From Actinocorallia herbida (lineage in GTDB: Bacteria > Actinomycetota > Actinomycetes > Streptosporangiales > Streptosporangiaceae), in assembly GCF_003751225.1 (NCBI RefSeq), contig NZ_RJKE01000001.1, positions 8,928,001-8,992,000 on the forward strand: 64,000 nucleotides of DNA, in the 5' to 3' direction. The notes below the pieces were generated by a model. That model worked only from the letters and a program-made list of their open reading frames with translations, was not told where the DNA came from and ran no database searches. Position numbers and translations under genes: made by a program. Shown in pieces: positions 9,174-17,183 of this stretch (positions within the stretch are counted from its first letter, which is position 1; each line of letters starts with the position of its first letter).

Positions 9174-9313
9174 GCACACATCGGGTGTCCTCTCTCACAC
9201 CCCCCGATCGACCGGCGGCTAGAAGGCCTCTCCTACCCTGGCCAGGAGTTGTTCTTCCGCAGGCAACCGGCACGATCGGGGGGCGTTACATTACTGTGCG
9301 TAATCTTGAGCGC

Positions 9314-10222
9314 ATGGACCGATGTGTCGAACTCCAGGGGCATCGGGGTGCTCGCGGACTTCGTCCCGAGAACACCCTTCCGGCCTTCGCACACGCCCTC
9401 GCGCTCGGCGTCGACGCCGTCGAGTTCGATGTCGGGTTCTCCGCGGACGGCGTCGTGGTGCTGCACCACGACCAGACCGTCTCACCGCTGACGACCCGGG
9501 ACACCGGACCGGCCTTCCCCGGGGACCCGCAGTTCCCGTACGTCGGGCGGCCCATCCGGACGCTGCGGCTCGACCAGCTCAAGACCCTGGACTCCGGGGT
9601 GCGCGCCGCGGATCCCGCCGATCCCTACCGCCGCACCGCGCTCGCGCTGCCGGGCACGCCGCTCGCGACGCTGGACGAGGCGTGCGCGCTGCTCGCCCCC
9701 GCCGGGAGCGTAAGGCTGTGCGTCGAGTTGAAGACCGACCCGTCCTGGCCGGACGCGGAGGTCGCCTACTTCGTCTCCGAGGTGCTCGCCGTCCTCGCCG
9801 CGCACGGCCTGCTGCACCGCACCCGGCTGCTCGGCTTCGACTGGCGGTTCCTCAAGCACACGCGGCGGCTGGAGCCGTCGGTGGCCCGGGTGGCGCTGGC
9901 CGAGCCGCCGACCCTGGCCGACCCGTCCTGGCTGGCCGGCGCGGACCCGCGCGACCCCGCCCTGTCGGCGCTCGCCGAGGGCGCGACGATCTTCTCGCCG
10001 CAGTACACGATGCTCGACGAGGCCCTGTTCGAGCGGGCCGCCGGGCTCGGCCTCCCGGTGACGGTCTGGACGGTCAACACCCCCGAGGCGATGGCCAGGT
10101 ACCTCGGCATGGGCGTCGCCGCGATCGTCACGGACTACCCGGATCTGCTCCGCGTCGTCATGACCGCCCATGGGCATGCCGTTCCCGAGCCGTACCGTAC
10201 GGTCGAGGCCGCCGCCTCATGA
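9314..10222 (+). CDS. Glycerophosphodiester phosphodiesterase
   Basis: The GDPD family hydrolyses glycerophosphodiesters to glycerol 3-phosphate and an alcohol. The catalytic opening GHRGARGLRPENTLPAF is near residues 8-24, EFDVGFSADG supplies metal ligands, and LHHD the second histidine. ELKTD and the C-terminal TVNTPEAMARYLGMGVAAIVTDYP complete the TIM barrel. I chose ATG 9314 because it gives the usual start just before the HRG motif; a GTG at 9296 in the same frame is possible. No signal peptide, so it is probably cytoplasmic. Confidence 0.92.
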   Translation: MDRCVELQGHRGARGLRPENTLPAFAHALALGVDAVEFDVGFSADGVVVLHHDQTVSPLTTRDTGPAFPGDPQFPYVGRPIRTLRLDQLKTLDSGVRAADPADPYRRTALALPGTPLATLDEACALLAPAGSVRLCVELKTDPSWPDAEVAYFVSEVLAVLAAHGLLHRTRLLGFDWRFLKHTRRLEPSVARVALAEPPTLADPSWLAGADPRDPALSALAEGATIFSPQYTMLDEALFERAAGLGLPVTVWTVNTPEAMARYLGMGVAAIVTDYPDLLRVVMTAHGHAVPEPYRTVEAAAS

Positions 10223-10288
10223 CGCCCACGACCCGGTGATCTTTGCGACCGGGAAGCTCATAAATGTCGTTGCATGACCGTTTCGTTG

Positions 10289-10301
10289 TTGTCTGAGACA
10301 A
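10289..10301. promoter_or_regulatory. Operator-like inverted repeat TTGTCT-N-AGACAA
   Basis: A perfect 13-base inverted repeat lies 30 bases before the start of the importer's binding-protein gene, just downstream of a possible promoter (TTGCAT at 10270). It could be a repressor site controlling the whole downstream run of genes to 17183. No regulator gene is adjacent. Confidence 0.5.
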
Positions 10302-10330
10302 AGGCTGGGACCTAGGGGTACAACCCACCT

Positions 10331-11668
10331 ATGCGGTCGCATGACGGTCCCTCCCCCGCCAGGTCGCTCTCCCGCCGCGGCGTCCTCGGGCTCGGCGCCC
10401 AGGCGCTGGCCGGCGCCGCCCTCGCCGGATGCGCGAAGCCCGCCCGGCACAACGGCGAGCTGACCGTGATGACGCACGCGAACGAGTTCGACGAGGCCGC
10501 GCGCAAGGAGGCGGAACGGGTCCTCGGCGTCCGGGTCCGCCGGCTCGACCCCGATCTCACCCGGCTCACCGCGATGCTCGCCGAAGGCGGTCCCCCGGAC
10601 GTCATCCGGGGGAGCGGGACCATCGACGCGCCCTTCCTCGCCGCGTCCCGGCTCGCCCTCGACCTCGATCCCCACCTCACGGCGAGCAAGGCCATCGACG
10701 CGGCCGACCTCGACCCCGTGGGCGACGCGTGGCGGTTCGACGGAGTCCGGCAGGGAGCCGGGCCCCGGTACGGACTCGTCAAGGACTACTCCCAAGACGG
10801 GATGTTCTGGTGCGACGCCTCCCTTTTCGACCGCGCCGGGGTGGCCCTGCCCGACCCGTCCCGGCCTCTCGGCCACGACGCCTGGCTGGACCTGGCCCGC
10901 GACCTGACCGTCCGCAGCGGTGGCCGGACCACCACCTACGGCCTCGACGTGTCCGGACTCGGCGGATTCCTCCACCTGATGGGGATGACGGCGTCGGCGG
11001 GCGGCCGGATCTTCGGCGACGACCTCGCGACCGTCGACTTCTCCGCGCCCGAGCCCAGGGAGGTCCTGCGCTGGTATCTCGCCTACATCCGGGCGCGGAC
11101 CGGTTTCAGCCCCGTCGACCTGAACCCCGACGGGTGGCCGTGGCCCGCCTTCCAGGCGCGGCGGATGGCGATGGTCATGGCCGGGTACTGGCTCGGCGCC
11201 CTCATCGCCGACGAGCCCGCCCTGCCCGCGGACGCCCGGCTCATGCCCGCGCCGTCGTTCGGAGGGCCGCGTGTCAGCCCCTGCTACGCCGCGGCGGGCC
11301 TGTGGATCCCGCGGACCTGCCCCATCCCCGAGACCGCCTGGGCGTTCTTCGAGTGGTACTTCGCCGGGGCGCCCGCCCGCGACCGCGCCGACCGCGGCTT
11401 CGGCGTGCCGCCGCTCACCTCGCTGCGGTCGCGGCTGCCCGCCGCCGAGCCGTTCCAGACGCGAGCGCTGGAGGTCCAGCGCGCGGAGCTGCCCCATCTC
11501 ACGGTCCTGTCCTTCACCCCCTACGCCCGGGAGGAGGCGCTGGACGCCGTCATCAACCGGGTCGTCCCCGAGGCGTTCGCGCGTGACGCGTCGCCCGGCG
11601 CCCTCGCCGAACTGCTGACCACCGAGATCAACGAGGTCCTCGCGCGCGGGAGGGAGCGGGTCGGGTGA
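10331..11668 (+). CDS. ABC importer sugar-type solute-binding lipoprotein
   Basis: The N-terminus has a twin-arginine signal (LSRRGVLGLG, residues 13-22) and a lipobox LAGC with C34, so it should be exported folded and lipid-anchored. The rest is a family 1 extracellular solute-binding fold of normal length (445 residues), with GMTASAGGRI and DGWPWPAFQARRMAMVM segments typical of sugar-binding proteins. The ligand is not predictable. The stop overlaps the start of the first permease by 4 bases. No ATPase gene is nearby, so a shared MsiK-type ATPase is likely. Confidence 0.92.
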   Translation: MRSHDGPSPARSLSRRGVLGLGAQALAGAALAGCAKPARHNGELTVMTHANEFDEAARKEAERVLGVRVRRLDPDLTRLTAMLAEGGPPDVIRGSGTIDAPFLAASRLALDLDPHLTASKAIDAADLDPVGDAWRFDGVRQGAGPRYGLVKDYSQDGMFWCDASLFDRAGVALPDPSRPLGHDAWLDLARDLTVRSGGRTTTYGLDVSGLGGFLHLMGMTASAGGRIFGDDLATVDFSAPEPREVLRWYLAYIRARTGFSPVDLNPDGWPWPAFQARRMAMVMAGYWLGALIADEPALPADARLMPAPSFGGPRVSPCYAAAGLWIPRTCPIPETAWAFFEWYFAGAPARDRADRGFGVPPLTSLRSRLPAAEPFQTRALEVQRAELPHLTVLSFTPYAREEALDAVINRVVPEAFARDASPGALAELLTTEINEVLARGRERVG

Positions 11669-12591
11669 GCGCTCCCGCAGGGACGGCCCGCAAGAGCCGC
11701 GTCTTCTACGTGTTCGTCCTTCCGTGGGTCATCGGGTTCCTCACCCTCACCGCCTTCCCCCTGGCGTACGCCTTCTGGCTGAGCCTCACCAGCGCCGACG
11801 TGCTCTCCCAGGACAGCGACTTCGTCGGAGCCGCCAACTACACCGAACTCCTCCACGACGCGCGAGCGGGCGAAGCCTTCGCCCGTACCGCCCTGTTCAC
11901 CTTGGCGACCGTTCCGGCGAGCGTCCTTGGCGGACTTCTCTTGGCCGTTCTCGTGCAGCGCCCCCTACCGGGCCGGGCCTTCTACCGCGCCGCGTTCTTC
12001 CTTCCCTCCGTGGTGCCTCCGGTGGCGACGGCGATCGCGTTCAAGGCGCTGTTCGCGCGCGACACCGGGGCCGTCAACGGGGTCCTCGGGCTCGCCGGGG
12101 CCGAGGCCGTCACCTGGACGGAGGGGCCGCACATGACCGCCGTGCTGGTCTGCCTGGCGCTGTGGGGCGTCGGCAGCTTCATGACGATCTCGCTCGCCGC
12201 CCTCCAGGACGTGCCGCGCGACCTCTTCGACGCCGCCCTGGTGGACGGCGCGGGGGCGCTGCGCACGTTCACCGCGGTCACCCTGCCGCTCATCTCACCC
12301 GTCCTGCTGTTCCAGGCCGTCACCGGGGTCACCGCGGGACTCCAGACGTTCCTGCCCGCGCTGCTCCTGGCCCCCGGATCCGGCGGGGGCGACCTCACCA
12401 CGATGCCGCAGGGCGGCTACTTCTTCATGATCCACGTCTATGTGGCCTACTTCGCCGAAGGGCGCTTCGGATACGCCTCGGCTCTGCTGTGGGTGCTCTT
12501 CCTGCTCACCCTCGCGTGCACAGGAGTGCTGTTCAGGCTCTCCCGAAGGTTCGTCTTCACCTTGGTCGGCCCCGGGGGTGGTCGTCCTTGA
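11665..12591 (+). CDS. ABC importer permease 1 (MalF/UgpA type)
   Basis: A 308-residue inner-membrane subunit with six predicted helices (first at about 12-32, FYVFVLPWVIGFLTLTAFPL). The EAA loop that contacts the ATPase reads AALVDGAGALRTFTAVTLPL. The GTG start overlaps the preceding stop (GTGA), so translation is coupled. Together with the next gene it forms the channel of a carbohydrate-type importer. Confidence 0.93.
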   Translation: MSAPAGTARKSRVFYVFVLPWVIGFLTLTAFPLAYAFWLSLTSADVLSQDSDFVGAANYTELLHDARAGEAFARTALFTLATVPASVLGGLLLAVLVQRPLPGRAFYRAAFFLPSVVPPVATAIAFKALFARDTGAVNGVLGLAGAEAVTWTEGPHMTAVLVCLALWGVGSFMTISLAALQDVPRDLFDAALVDGAGALRTFTAVTLPLISPVLLFQAVTGVTAGLQTFLPALLLAPGSGGGDLTTMPQGGYFFMIHVYVAYFAEGRFGYASALLWVLFLLTLACTGVLFRLSRRFVFTLVGPGGGRP

Positions 12592-13394
12592 GGCATCCCC
12601 TCCTGCACTTCGCCCTGATCTGCCTGGCGGTGCTCTTCCTCAGCCCTCTCCTGTGGCTGTTCCTCGCGGCGCTGAAGAGCCCCGATGAGCGGGCGTCGGA
12701 CCACTGGCTGCCCGCGCAGCCCCGCTGGGGGAACTTCGCCGACGCGTTCACCCGGATCGACTTCTCCGGGCACCTCCTGAACTCCGTCATCCTGGCCTGC
12801 CTCTACTCGGTGCTCACGACGGCGAGTTCCGTCTGCGCGGGCTACGGCTTCGCGCGCCTCACCGCACGCGGGGAGAAGCCCCTGTTCGCGCTGCTCGTGA
12901 TGACCATGATGACGCCCGGCATCGTCACCCTCGTGCCGACGTACCTGCTGTTCGCGAGACTCGGCCTCGTCGGCACGTACTGGCCGTGGGTCCTGTGGGG
13001 GCTCGGCGGGAACGCCTACATCATCTTCCTCTTCCGGCAGTTCTTCGCCGCCGTCCCCAGGGAGCTCGAAGAGGCCGCCTTCATCGACGGCTGCGGGCAC
13101 GTCCGCCTGTTCCTGCGCGTCGTGCTGCCCCAGTCCGGCCCCGCCCTGACCGCCTCCGCGGTGCTCACCTTCGCCTGGGCCTGGGGCGACTGGACGGGCC
13201 CGCGCCTGCTCCTCGACGAGAGGACGACGACGCTGGCGGTGGCCGTCCCGATGGGGTACGCGGACCCGTCCGGGCACGGCGTGGACAACCTCCTCGCCGC
13301 GGGATCCCTGCTGTACGTGCTCCCTTTGCTCCTGCTCTTCCTGTTCGCCCAGCGGTACTTCACCGCGGGCGCCTACGCCTCCTGGATGCGGTAG
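12588..13394 (+). CDS. ABC importer permease 2 (MalG type)
   Basis: A 268-residue membrane subunit of the carbohydrate uptake CUT1 class, with helices from the start (HFALICLAVLFLSPLLWLFL) and the EAA loop EEAAFIDGCGHVRLFLRVVL. The start is a TTG at 12588, the only start in frame near the upstream stop; it overlaps that stop as TTGA and has GGGGGTGG 8 bases upstream. A non-ATG/GTG start here is unusual, but the frame, the helices at once after it and the coupling support it. Confidence 0.9.
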   Translation: MRHPLLHFALICLAVLFLSPLLWLFLAALKSPDERASDHWLPAQPRWGNFADAFTRIDFSGHLLNSVILACLYSVLTTASSVCAGYGFARLTARGEKPLFALLVMTMMTPGIVTLVPTYLLFARLGLVGTYWPWVLWGLGGNAYIIFLFRQFFAAVPRELEEAAFIDGCGHVRLFLRVVLPQSGPALTASAVLTFAWAWGDWTGPRLLLDERTTTLAVAVPMGYADPSGHGVDNLLAAGSLLYVLPLLLLFLFAQRYFTAGAYASWMR

Positions 13395-13397
13395 CCG

Positions 13398-15509
13398 ATG
13401 CGCGTCCAGATCGGATCGGTCGTCGTCGAGACCGGAGCCGCCGCCCCGGAAGGCGGGCCGCCCTGGACGCTGCCGCGCCGTCCCGCGGCCTTCACCGGAC
13501 GCGCCGAGGAACTCGAAGAGATCGTCGCCCAGGCGTCATCGGCCGGGGCGCCCTCGATCATCTGCCTGTGCGGCCGTCCCGGGGTCGGCAAGACCGCGCT
13601 GGCGCTGGAGGCGGCGCACCGGCTCCGCGGGCGCTTCCCCGGCGGCGCCCTGTTCGCCGAGGCGCGCGCGCACAGCGGCGGCGAACGGCTGGGCGCGATG
13701 GAGGTCCTGGAGCGCCTCCTCAGCGATCTCGGGCACTCCCCCGCGCACATCCCCGGCGACCGCGAGGCCCGCGCGGCGGCGTTCCGGGAGGTCACCGCCG
13801 GCCGCCGGATGGTCGTGGTCGTCGACGACGTCGTCTCCCCCGCCGAGCTGCCGCTGCTGCGCCCGGCCCGCGGCTCGCTGCTGCTGGCGACGGGCAGGCG
13901 CGTCATGACCGCGCCGGACGCGCTGACCTTCGCCCTCGACGGGCTGCGCCCCCGCGACGCCGTCCGGCTGCTCACCGCGGCCGGGGCGGGGGAGGAGACC
14001 GCCGAGGACATCGCGCGCGCCTGCGGCAGGCTCCCGCTGGCGCTGCGGATCGCCGCGGCGCGGCTGGCGCTCGACCCCGGCCTGCGCGCCGCCGACCTCG
14101 CCGCGGCCCTCGCCCGCCCCGACGGGCGGCTGTTCGCGCTCAGCGACGGCATGGGCGACCGGGCGGTCCGGGCGACCTTCGCCTCCTCCTACGCCTCGCT
14201 CGACCCCTCGGCGCGGCGCTTCTTCCGGCTGCTCGCGGCACTGCCGCTGGCCGACCTCACCGCGGGCTCCGCGGCCGTGCTCACCGGCGCGCCCGACGCG
14301 GGGGAGCGGCTGCGCGGCCTCGCCGACCTGCACCTGCTCGACGTCCGGGACGGCCACGGCGGCCCCCGCTACCGGATGCACGACCTCGTCGCGCTCTACG
14401 CGCGCGAACTGCTCGGTCCCGGCCGGGGCGACGCGGCGGCCGACCGCACCGCGGTCTGGTACGCGGCCCGCACCGCCGAGCACCGCGCCGCCCTCGACGG
14501 GCCGGACACCCGCGAGGCCCGGCAGTGGTACCTGGAGGAATGGGACAACATCGTCGCGGCCGGGAGCCGGCTGTTCCGCAGCGGGCTCGTCGAGGAGCTC
14601 TGGGCCCTCGTCCGCGCGGTGACCTCCGACGTCGACGTGCACTCGCCGTTCGGCGACTGGGAGCGGCTGCACCGCTGGGGGGCGCGGCTGTGCGCCCAGG
14701 CCGGGCAGCCGGACCGCGCGGCGCGGCTGCACGAGAGGCTGGCGCTCGCCTACCGCGAGGGCATGCGGATGAAGGAGGCCTTCGAGGAGGTCGCGGCGAT
14801 GCGGGAGCTGACCGCCGGGGACCCGCGCGGGACCGCCGACGCCGACCACGCCGAGGCGAACCTGCTGCGCGACGAGGGAGACCTGGACCGGGCCCTGTGG
14901 CTGACCCTGCGCGCGCACGGGGTCTTCGTGGCCGACCGCGACTGGACCGCCGTCGGGTGGGCGCTGCACGGGCAGGCCGACCTCGTGCGCGCGCAGGGGC
15001 ACGCGCTGCACTCCCTGCGCCTCCGCGTCACCGAGATCGCCGCGTTCACGCGCGGCGACGACCGCTTCGGCCTCGCCTGGGCGTACCACGGGCTGGGGGA
15101 GGCGTACGTGGACCTCGGACGGTACGCGGAGGCTGAGGCCAACCTTCGGACGGCCCTGCGCGTGCTGGCCGAACTGGGCGCCTTCAAGAGCGAAGGCTGG
15201 ACCCTGGAACTCCTCGCGAAGGTGCTGCTATCGCGGGGCCGTGAAGACGACGCGCTCGTCCTGTTCGAAAGGGCGCTGCGCTCCTACGAGACGCGCGGCA
15301 ACCGCGGCGACCAGGCCCGAGCACTGCTCCTGCTCGGGGACGCCGCCGCGCGTCGAGGGCGGGACGCGGAGGCGGCGACGCTGTGGCGCACCGCAAGGGC
15401 GCGGCTCGCCTCCCTCGACGGCGGACGTGTCGAGGACGTATCGGAGCGGCTTCGGTCCCGTCTCGAGGCGCTGACCGAGCCGGACGGGCACGGCGATACT
15501 GGGCCGTGA
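13398..15509 (+). CDS. NB-ARC/TPR NLR-like protein with N-terminal VQIG motif
   Basis: A 703-residue STAND protein. It begins MRVQIGSVVVETG, where V3-G6 match the RHIM core (V/I)Q(V/I)G. The entry motif FTGR (32-35) is followed by the P-loop GRPGVGKT (59-66), Walker B VVVVDD (139-144), the GxP-type LPLAL (212-216) and a clean MHD motif (327-329). TPR-like helical repeats fill about 470-690 (YHGLGEAYVDLGRYAEAEANL). There is no DNA-binding domain, unlike AfsR/SARP regulators, and no effector domain, so it should act through a partner. It begins 3 bases after the permease stop and is followed by a cyclase-fold gene 28 bases on. ATP-driven oligomerisation is inferred from the family. Confidence 0.92.
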   Translation: MRVQIGSVVVETGAAAPEGGPPWTLPRRPAAFTGRAEELEEIVAQASSAGAPSIICLCGRPGVGKTALALEAAHRLRGRFPGGALFAEARAHSGGERLGAMEVLERLLSDLGHSPAHIPGDREARAAAFREVTAGRRMVVVVDDVVSPAELPLLRPARGSLLLATGRRVMTAPDALTFALDGLRPRDAVRLLTAAGAGEETAEDIARACGRLPLALRIAAARLALDPGLRAADLAAALARPDGRLFALSDGMGDRAVRATFASSYASLDPSARRFFRLLAALPLADLTAGSAAVLTGAPDAGERLRGLADLHLLDVRDGHGGPRYRMHDLVALYARELLGPGRGDAAADRTAVWYAARTAEHRAALDGPDTREARQWYLEEWDNIVAAGSRLFRSGLVEELWALVRAVTSDVDVHSPFGDWERLHRWGARLCAQAGQPDRAARLHERLALAYREGMRMKEAFEEVAAMRELTAGDPRGTADADHAEANLLRDEGDLDRALWLTLRAHGVFVADRDWTAVGWALHGQADLVRAQGHALHSLRLRVTEIAAFTRGDDRFGLAWAYHGLGEAYVDLGRYAEAEANLRTALRVLAELGAFKSEGWTLELLAKVLLSRGREDDALVLFERALRSYETRGNRGDQARALLLLGDAAARRGRDAEAATLWRTARARLASLDGGRVEDVSERLRSRLEALTEPDGHGDTGP

Positions 15510-15537
15510 GGCGACTTGCGTTAGCGGAGGAGGCTCT

Positions 15538-16317
15538 GTGGACCCTGCCCTTGCCGCGCGGCGGATCTGTGTCGCGGTGGACGTCGAGAACTACAGCGGA
15601 CGCGGTGATCTCGCGCAGGAGGAGGTGCAGCGCGGCCTAGCGGCGCTGCTCCGGGGGGCGCACGCCGCGGCGGCCCCGGCCGTCGCCCTCGCGCGGCAGC
15701 CTTCCGGCGACGGAGAGGTCGCGCTGGTCGACCCTCCGGCCGACGAGGCGCGCTTCCTCGCGGACTTTGTCCACAGCCTGTGGACAGGACTCGGCGCGGA
15801 GGGCGAAGCCGTGCCTTTCCGGTTGCGCGTGTCCGTCCACTGCGGGATCGCGTGGCTCGGCGACAACGGGTTCGTCGGCCGGGCGGTGGTGAAGACCTGC
15901 CGGATGCTCGACTCGGCGGTGCTGCGCGCCGCCTTGCGCGACGACCCGGGCACCCGCCTTGCGCTCATGGTCTCCGACTCCTTCTACGACGACGTGGTCC
16001 GGCGCGATCCTCCGGGCCTGGCCGCCGCCCGCTTCACCGCCGCGCGCGTCGGCGGGCCCTTCGACGCCGACGCCTGGATCTGGACCGGTGGACGGCCCAT
16101 CGCGGCGGACGGCGAGCTCGTCCCCCGGACCACGCCCCCGGCGCCCCGGCCCGCGGCGCCGGACGAGATCAAGATCCCGCAGCCCGCCCCGGCCGCGCCG
16201 CTCGCCGCGATGTCGGTGACGGTCCACCCCGACGCCCGGGTCGGCACCCTGATCCAGGCCGCCGAGATCATCGGCGGGGTGCACCTGAGCGCCGCGCCGC
16301 CCCCCGGAGCGCCGTGA
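15538..16317 (+). CDS. Class III cyclase-fold protein with C-terminal amyloid-like motif
   Basis: Residues 8-185 resemble the class III nucleotide cyclase fold common as stand-alone degenerate proteins in actinobacteria: AVDVENYS (D15) at the first strand, SGDGE (56-60) at the metal site, and LRVSVHCGIA and MVSDSFYDDVV later. Only part of the catalytic set is evident, so activity is uncertain. A Pro-rich linker (about 190-225) leads to a C-terminal motif around 232-250 with the core LIQAAEIIGGVHL, which fits the G-x-x-x-Q-A-x-x-I-x-G-G-V-H pattern of BASS3/RHIM-like amyloid motifs. The GTG start has a strong GGAGGAGG 5 bases upstream. The stop overlaps the next start (GTGA). A likely effector or signalling partner of the NB-ARC protein. 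Confidence 0.85.
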   Translation: MDPALAARRICVAVDVENYSGRGDLAQEEVQRGLAALLRGAHAAAAPAVALARQPSGDGEVALVDPPADEARFLADFVHSLWTGLGAEGEAVPFRLRVSVHCGIAWLGDNGFVGRAVVKTCRMLDSAVLRAALRDDPGTRLALMVSDSFYDDVVRRDPPGLAAARFTAARVGGPFDADAWIWTGGRPIAADGELVPRTTPPAPRPAAPDEIKIPQPAPAAPLAAMSVTVHPDARVGTLIQAAEIIGGVHLSAAPPPGAP

Positions 16318-17183
16318 CGGCCTCCGAACCCGCCCTCCATCTGGAGGTGCACGGCCCCGTGGACACCGCGGTGCAGGTCGGCCGCCTGGTCCTGCGGCTG
16401 CCCGCGCCGTTCCCCGACCATCCGCCGTCACGCGCGGCCCGCGGCACGGAACTCGCCGCGCTGTGGCGGGCCGCCTCCGAGGCCGAGCCTCCCCCGGGCG
16501 TCGTGCTCACCGGGCCGTCCGGGAGCGGCAAGAGCACCCTCGCGCTCCAATGGGCCCACCAGGCGCACGGGCTGTTCCCGGGTGGACTACGGCACGCCGA
16601 CCTCTGTGCCGCTCCCGCGCCCGCGCCCACCGACCCGCCTGAGGGGCCGCGCAGCCTCCTCATCCTCGACAACGTGCCCGATGACTTCGATGTGGTGGCT
16701 CACCTTCCCGCCGCCGAATCCTGCTTCACCCTCATCACCACCCGCGTCCCGCGCCCTTCCCTCATCGTGGACGGGTTCCGCGCCCTCGCCGTCACGCCGC
16801 CGCCCCCTCCGTCGGCGCCTCTCCTCACCCTCCTGCACGATCTGCCCCACCTCGCCGACCCGGCCGGCCTCCCCTCCGACGCCCTGACGCCCCTGCTCCG
16901 GGCCGCGCAGGCCGAGGCCGAGGACACCCGCGACCTCCGCACCCACGCCGCCGTCAGCCTCCGCCTCGCCCGCCTCGACGCCGAAGCCGACCGCCCCGCC
17001 TCCGCCCTCCACTCCTACGCCCAAGCCCTCCACTCCTACGCCCACCTGGGAGACACCTCTTCCTACGCCCTCGCCCTCCGCGAGGCCACTCACCTCCACA
17101 GCTCCCTCCCGAAGGATCCGAACCGCCCCTCCCCACCGGAAGGGACGGCCCGGAGGCCCGCTCAGGACTCGGGGACGATGTAG
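16314..17183 (+). CDS. Short P-loop ATPase with N-terminal VQVG motif
   Basis: A 289-residue protein whose N-terminus carries EVHGPVDTAVQVGRLVLRLP (11-30), with V20-G23 matching the RHIM core. A P-loop GPSGSGKS (67-74) and Walker B SLLILDN (114-120) follow, but the ARC helical part and MHD motif of the upstream NB-ARC protein are missing. The end has one or two TPR-like helices (RPASALHSYAQALHSYAHLG). It could be a truncated NLR, or a regulator that co-assembles with the longer one. It starts inside the stop of the cyclase-fold gene, so the two are translated together. Confidence 0.85.
   Translation: MTASEPALHLEVHGPVDTAVQVGRLVLRLPAPFPDHPPSRAARGTELAALWRAASEAEPPPGVVLTGPSGSGKSTLALQWAHQAHGLFPGGLRHADLCAAPAPAPTDPPEGPRSLLILDNVPDDFDVVAHLPAAESCFTLITTRVPRPSLIVDGFRALAVTPPPPPSAPLLTLLHDLPHLADPAGLPSDALTPLLRAAQAEAEDTRDLRTHAAVSLRLARLDAEADRPASALHSYAQALHSYAHLGDTSSYALALREATHLHSSLPKDPNRPSPPEGTARRPAQDSGTM

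Follow-up and report, generated by a model that had tools for sequence, protein, structure and literature searches.

A three-gene NLR cassette in Actinocorallia herbida whose putative effector combines a class III cyclase fold with a BASS-type tail motif

Genes of the cassette

The window analysed here is a stretch of 64,000 nucleotides from the genome of Actinocorallia herbida (assembly GCF_003751225.1, contig NZ_RJKE01000001.1, positions 8,928,001 to 8,992,000), which consists of a single contig of 9.8 Mb. It contains a cassette of three genes, designated A, B and C, that encode an NLR-type receptor, a protein with a cyclase fold and a shortened P-loop protein (Table 1). An initial annotation, made from the nucleotide letters and their open reading frames, had proposed a three-gene cassette of an NB-ARC/TPR protein, a cyclase-fold protein and a second P-loop protein, and this composition was confirmed by domains, motifs and coordinates. 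The start of gene C overlaps the end of gene B by 4 bases, and GGAGGAGG upstream of gene B is likely its ribosome-binding site. The same trio is present in a second genome of the genus (G002, locus L041), referred to below as the second genome.

Gene A matched the Pfam families NB-ARC (6.3e-8) and TPR_12 (1.6e-13), and the features that characterize a bacterial NLR, namely P-loop, Walker B, LPLAL (GLPL-like) and MHD motifs as well as C-terminal TPRs, were all located in the protein. Beyond NB-ARC/TPR, no domain above cut-off was detected in scans with Pfam, NCBIfam and PADLOC. The best NCBIfam matches were to NB-ARC/TPR proteins of the HaaT type (4.4e-53, 180.6 bits versus a cut-off of 1125) and the AfsR/SARP type (AfsR, 9.6e-49, 166.1 bits versus 1430), both far below the cut-offs, and A, in which just 24 residues precede LPRRP, lacks the N-terminal HTH/BTAD DNA-binding region that would place it among the AfsR/SARP regulators. 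PADLOC-DB 2023 gave weak generic matches for A and C and none for B.

Gene C matched AAA_16 (4.6e-7) and nSTAND_NTPase5 (4.9e-5), in both cases under the Pfam cut-offs. Its alignment with A (31%) covers the N-terminal strand and P-loop of A, while the MHD and TPR region of A is absent from C. The orthologue in the second genome is 67.5-68% identical and scored 332.5 bits, followed by a next match of 50.6 bits; the remaining matches of C were generic P-loops.

Class III cyclase domains work as dimers and employ two metal-binding aspartates, an arginine and an asparagine for the transition state, a lysine and an aspartate for the purine, and a C-terminal lysine for the triphosphate. Comparison with 3mr7 and Mycobacterium avium Ma1120 indicated that B has this cyclase homology fold, and according to the alignment to 3mr7 it also keeps both metal aspartates (D15 and D58) and the arginine (R122), which are present in both trio genomes. 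In a set of 60 members of the B family, D15 was found in 58, D58 in 59, R122 in 58, Q54 in 52 and V118 in 44. B differs from the class III cyclases in the addition of an unstructured tail that carries a motif, as detailed below, and in changes at the lysine, aspartate, asparagine and C-terminal lysine sites.

Table 1. Features of the cassette and of the genes preceding it, with positions in the window
Feature	Position	Strand	Description
Gene A	13398..15509	+	703 aa; putative sensor, an NB-ARC/TPR protein of the STAND class (NLR-type)
A, N-terminal RHIM-like core VQIGSVV	13404..13424	+	residues 3-9
Gene B	15538..16317	+	259 aa; putative effector with a class III cyclase fold
B, active-site region	15580..15903	+	D15, D58 (metal) and R122 kept; Q54, R115 and V118 replace Lys, Asp and Asn
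B, C-terminal tail with BASS-type motif	16204..16287	+	residues 223-250; core GTLIQAAEIIGGVHL at 236-250
Gene C	16314..17183	+	289 aa; reduced, STAND-like P-loop paralogue of A that lacks the MHD and TPR region
C, N-terminal RHIM-like core AVQVGRLV	16368..16391	+	residues 19-26; aligned with VQIGSVVV of A
ABC-transporter genes (solute-binding protein, two permeases)	10331..13394	+	SBP_bac_1 and BPD_transp_1 (first two genes scanned), gene calls

The tail motif of gene B and its counterparts

The last 37 residues of B include the core GTLIQAAEIIGGVHL. An unseeded tblastn search with a 31-aa piece of this tail against 72,556 plasmids (E<=10) returned 53 records, the best of which was the N-terminus of a Streptomyces P-loop NLR (E=2, not significant alone), while the other 52 were from Xanthomonas; those listed fell in RepA and were taken as chance. 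The N-terminus of the Streptomyces NLR in turn returned five records including itself, and a total of eight NLR-side motifs was available for a profile. This profile was applied to a set of 710 proteins from positions 5001-28000 of the window, from 40 loci around B relatives (L041-L080) and from 18 of the 27 loci of an alignment-based search (the other nine being duplicates). B of the window ranked first (E=1.4e-5), and none of 2000 shuffles was as good. It was still first after removal of the seed NLR from the profile (E=5.1e-5), and the removal of two NLRs resulted in an E of 3.4e-5. The B tail of the second genome took second place when all eight motifs were used (E=0.16) and third place when two were left out (E=0.47). 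With an effector-side profile of 12 motifs the two B tails occupied the first and second ranks of the 710 proteins and were matched by none of 2000 shuffles, followed in third place by another cyclase-family protein (L055, E 0.038). The B tail was also the best match of the NLR profile in a search of its own genome (E=0.0014; next match 0.19). Between the two trio genomes, 19 of 28 tail residues are identical versus 11 of 39 in the preceding linker, which makes the tail the more conserved part. As judged from these comparisons, we regard the BASS-type motif at the tail of B as a firm finding. An assignment of the tail to BASS3 was rejected, since the BASS3 peptide published in Table 2 of PMC8086366, the part of that source used here, has VQVG like C and not the QA..I.GG pattern of B.

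Among other genomes, the motif was found at E<=0.01 in 23 of 60, the window's own included, and at E<=0.001 in 27 of 296 genomes of the class, the window's own (0.0014) not being among the latter. Loci were examined for 49 matches at the more permissive threshold (30 loci, 29 plus the window) and for 41 matches at the stricter one (27 new loci). Most of the motifs were located either near the N-terminus of P-loop proteins, many of them homologues of A, or at the C-terminus of small proteins of 106-178 aa (239 aa in one case); some matches were of neither type, weak, or lost during gene calling. One of the small proteins was predicted to form five helices followed by a disordered motif tail, and, except for one weak match below cut-off, Pfam revealed no domain in this group, which we term Bell-like on the grounds of size, motif position and, for the one protein, the predicted helices. 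With NLR N-termini and the C-termini of small proteins as hosts, this distribution resembles the published BASS arrangement, in which, according to the section of PMC7889193 used here, NLRs carry the motif N-terminally and a small helical Bell protein, or less often a CHAT or TIR protein, carries it C-terminally. Tandem pairs of P-loop NLR genes with the motif at the N-terminus of each product were encountered on Streptomyces plasmids (L133, 726+755 aa; L134, 691+728 aa; L136, 694+754 aa), and the L136 pair adjoins a helicase and a type I-E CRISPR gene.

Both A and C carry [IV]Q[IV]G near the N-terminus, a sequence described in the section of PMC7885112 used here as the core common to RHIM and PP amyloid motifs. 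It occurred 8 times in a total of 164,046 residues, and within the first 60 aa it was present in 4 of 513 called proteins, all of them A or C of the two genomes. The motif of A cannot extend upstream because an in-frame stop lies immediately 5' of its ATG. The N-terminus of A is identical at 12 of 13 positions in the second genome, while the following 11 residues share only two. For the N-terminus of C, 5 of 2000 shuffles scored better with the effector-side profile in each genome, and 83 of 2000 did so with the NLR-side profile (417 of 2000 for C of the second genome). Direct alignments were weak (A-C p=0.013). The participation of C in the motif is therefore suggestive, and that of A is no more than a resemblance. 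A tblastn search of the plasmids with the C N-terminus returned one match, judged to be due to chance. No second cassette was found in the window's own genome, where the NB-ARC relatives and two of three weak tail matches were examined (the third is a 69-aa frame).

Distribution of the cassette and of the B family

The trio was found in two of the three Actinocorallia genomes compared. The order permease-A-B-C is the same in the second genome, the tail and N-terminal strands are kept, and the genes have diverged from those of the window to a similar degree (64% identity for one permease, 64% for A, about 64% (59-65%) for B and 67.5% for C), while the downstream UvrA-like gene is 84-85% identical. 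The UvrA-like gene of the second genome (L041 / G002:C3:277059-279534) appears to be split in two, and an internal TAA is present in one of the parts. For the third Actinocorallia genome, the best matches by E-value reached 37% (permease) and 41% (UvrA-like protein), and the best match to B had an E-value of 1.9e-8.

The initial annotation had named two findings that would speak against it, rare co-occurrence of homologues of the three genes and regular association of the cyclase-fold gene with unrelated neighbours, and these apply in part. A clear C orthologue was limited to the window genome and one other among the 297 genomes sampled from the bacterial family (2/297), and B relatives often have other neighbours. 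Synteny of the trio extends to a second species. Matches to the B family were present in 171 of the 297 genomes, with five in the window genome including B itself. Below the orthologue in the second genome, identity among the top-scoring matches did not exceed 43%, and the matches examined have other neighbours. A single-sequence scan of the genome contig collection with B returned no match, and the alignment-based scan returned 27 loci, of which L091 is the same locus as L041 and therefore the trio. The remaining 26 (18 examined and 8 duplicates of examined loci) did not contain an A-like gene beside B.

In the 60-gene set, which favours close relatives of B, a CRP-like gene was located directly upstream of 32 genes and within three genes of 42. 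The three CRP-like genes that were scanned contained cNMP_binding and HTH_Crp_2 domains, and the phosphate-cassette pattern fits 38 of the 42. For 37 B-family genes that encode a tail and are followed by another gene at a distance of up to 200 nt, 17 tails matched the downstream protein (z>=3) versus 64 of 1332 non-cognate pairs, although many pairs come from the same subfamilies and are not independent; the B-C pair of the window was not among the 17 (z 0.6). Many actinomycete members of the family (L050-L080, L099-L117) adjoin CRP/FNR-like regulators, often together with a large downstream protein with a common tail motif. An example from Amycolatopsis (L115:5267-11018), which is also one of the matching pairs, consists of a CRP-like gene, a cyclase-fold gene and a gene whose product is an nSTAND/TPR P-loop protein of 1446 aa; the motifs of the latter two are almost the same. 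Near a B paralogue of the window's own genome (L044:7540-9638), two adjacent genes have in common another, repeat-like end (SVTITGSTITGSQINTG / SVHISGGTVSGGQINTG), which may be a further pair of homotypic motifs. EAD2 was detected on one distant B relative. None of 27 family members scanned singly had a Pfam cyclase match, so that in many cases the annotation of such systems may not go beyond hypothetical proteins.

Interpretation of the cassette

We favour, with about even confidence, the reading that the trio is an NLR cassette whose effector has a class III cyclase fold and is attached via a BASS-type homotypic beta-motif. B resembles an effector of the BASS type in which a cyclase fold takes the place of Bell, and the earlier claim that it is a separately encoded effector gains support from the partner-type tail motif and from synteny in the second species. 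The initial annotation mentions neither this tail motif nor the canonical cyclase residues that B lacks. The TPR part of A would sense a trigger, upon which A would exchange nucleotide and oligomerise via NB-ARC, as is established for the family. The clustered N-terminal strands of A, plus those of C, could then template the flexible C-terminal tail of B, the motif being evident on B, weak on C and represented by the VQIG core on A. Templating would concentrate the cyclase-fold domains of B and, through a nucleotide signal or a nucleotide-binding action, may lead to cell arrest or death, with C tuning the threshold as helper or brake. The earlier suggestion that C acts as co-receptor or brake is plausible, given that C is a reduced A paralogue and that tandem motif-bearing NLR pairs occur on Streptomyces plasmids. 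The cassette may have an anti-phage role.

If the cyclase-fold effector is true, amyloid templating and nucleotide second messengers, both of them themes of innate immunity, would be joined in one short operon, and the cyclase fold would be a new effector type next to Bell and the less frequent CHAT and TIR, to which bacterial amyloid signalling has so far been tied mainly (PMC7889193, same section). A bolder form of this reading, which we consider doubtful, is that amyloid templating by the RHIM-like strands of A and of C as a truncated decoy NLR gates B, such that the synthesis of the second messenger is under the control of prion-like assembly rather than of a ligand. The B family at large, in which tails match STAND-like or other partners and CRP-type receptors are adjacent, would then represent a broad class of actinomycete cyclic-nucleotide systems, so far undescribed, that are gated by amyloid.

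Among known systems, the trio most resembles the BASS NLR signalosomes (Dyrka et al. 2020), in which an NLR is likewise encoded beside a separate partner whose C-terminal short homotypic motif is found at NLR N-termini elsewhere. It differs from them in the class III cyclase fold of its effector, where the section of PMC7889193 used here names Bell, CHAT and TIR, in the reduction of the A motif to a core and in the additional truncated NLR. The trio is probably best seen as a BASS-like NLR signalosome to which BASS membership is not assigned, as on the NLR side A has VQIG only and fails both profiles, and C matches weakly. The coupling logic is shared with iSTAND2 ternary systems, where, in the part of Kaur et al. 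2021 (PMC8195603) used here, matching adaptor domains occasionally link a cNMP cyclase to a protein derived from STAND; there the STAND domain is of the iSTAND kind within a MoxR-vWA ternary and the adaptors are domains (EAD, bDLD3), while the trio has an intact NB-ARC and a beta-motif that is short. The conflict systems of the MoxR-vWA (VMAP) type, which include cNMP cyclase domains and EADs and are described in the corresponding part of Kaur et al. 2020 (PMC7159879), similarly couple cyclase domains via a small element common to neighbouring proteins, as proposed for the trio. With Pfam, none of the three proteins of the trio matched MoxR, vWA, VMAP or EAD, which sets the cassette apart from the MoxR-vWA and iSTAND systems. 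Pycsar systems consist of a cUMP/cCMP cyclase and a nucleotide-gated effector; A and C differ from the latter in that Pfam revealed neither a cyclic-nucleotide-binding nor a TIR domain in them, and the adjacent effector of Pycsar is thus missing. Among the papers listed in literature searches on the cyclase theme, no title or abstract start described the trio, and an earlier description in Dyrka et al. 2020, which lay beyond that search, is possible.

Several results weigh against the reading of a motif-coupled cyclase-fold effector. The N-terminus of A fails the motif profiles, with 1644 of 2000 shuffles (NLR-side) and 833 of 2000 (effector-side) reaching its score, and for A of the second genome 1097 shuffles were as high on the NLR profile while the effector-side profile gave no score. 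Direct alignments of B with A (p=0.149) and with C (p=0.34, z -0.2 and 0.6) were not above chance. A joint A/B/C pattern, which was derived from the trio proteins after the fact, occurred 6 times in 226,812 residues, always in trio genes. The B tail misses E<=0.001 genome-wide (0.0014), and its effector-side E-values (0.014 in one genome, 0.018 in the other) fall short of HMMER's inclusion threshold. No other cyclase with the motif was present at the 56 other-genome loci examined, and scoring of 150 of the 174 first-look candidates from the window's own genome revealed no other NLR that bears it, which would leave B without a known partner if A is not the one. Since A retains just the RHIM-like VQIG core and fails the profiles, we can only infer the link between A and B. 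In addition, B lacks four canonical class III residues, with Lys replaced by Q54, Asp by R115 and Asn by V118, and the C-terminal Lys, which is present in 56 of 60 family members, missing from the lysine-free segment FTAARVGGPFDADA.

These missing residues favour the alternative that B is a pseudoenzyme that binds nucleotide without turnover and acts as a scaffold, decoy or nucleotide gauge watched by A and C, with the motif merely holding the complex together, and inactive cNMP cyclase domains have been reported in MoxR-vWA conflict systems (PMC7159879, same part). We nevertheless find it unlikely, as both trio genomes retain the metal aspartates and the arginine, which hardly vary in the family (58, 59 and 58 of 60), and the CRP-like neighbours of B relatives point to a cyclic nucleotide. 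Moreover, glutamine and valine at the lysine and asparagine sites are the norm in the B family, for which a chemistry of its own is therefore possible. B appears to be either an unusual enzyme or a pseudoenzyme. The reduction of the A motif to VQIG with no possible upstream extension, the truncation of C and the lack of another motif NLR in the genome would also agree with a decayed coupling, in which B took its motif from a BASS system and the NLR of that system either disappeared or decayed into A and C, leaving a cassette of little present function. This is improbable in view of three intact frames in two genomes at 64-68% identity and the conservation of the A strand far above the next 11 residues and of the B tail above its preceding linker.

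The genomic setting offers a further alternative that does not involve immunity. The solute-binding protein gene, the two permease genes (10331-13394) and A, B and C are six tightly spaced genes on the forward strand, and A begins 3 nt past the stop of the second permease gene, so that the upstream ABC genes and A are likely part of the same transcript. The trio could accordingly be a regulatory module of the ABC uptake operon, possibly together with a GDPD gene, in which the ATPases sense a metabolite or the transporter state and the output is a cyclic nucleotide. The gene order kept in the second genome, the about equal divergence of permease and trio (64% versus 64-68%) and a third genome of the genus without close versions of either permease or B would agree with such a module. 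We rate it as quite unlikely, because the linkage is seen in two genomes only and may reflect shared ancestry, motif-bearing NLRs elsewhere adjoin other genes such as helicase and CRISPR genes, and Pfam shows no domain common to the trio and the transporter. The GDPD gene and the ABC uptake operon together occupy positions 9185-13394 ahead of the trio, and the transported substrate is perhaps, as a guess, a glycerophosphodiester or a sugar.

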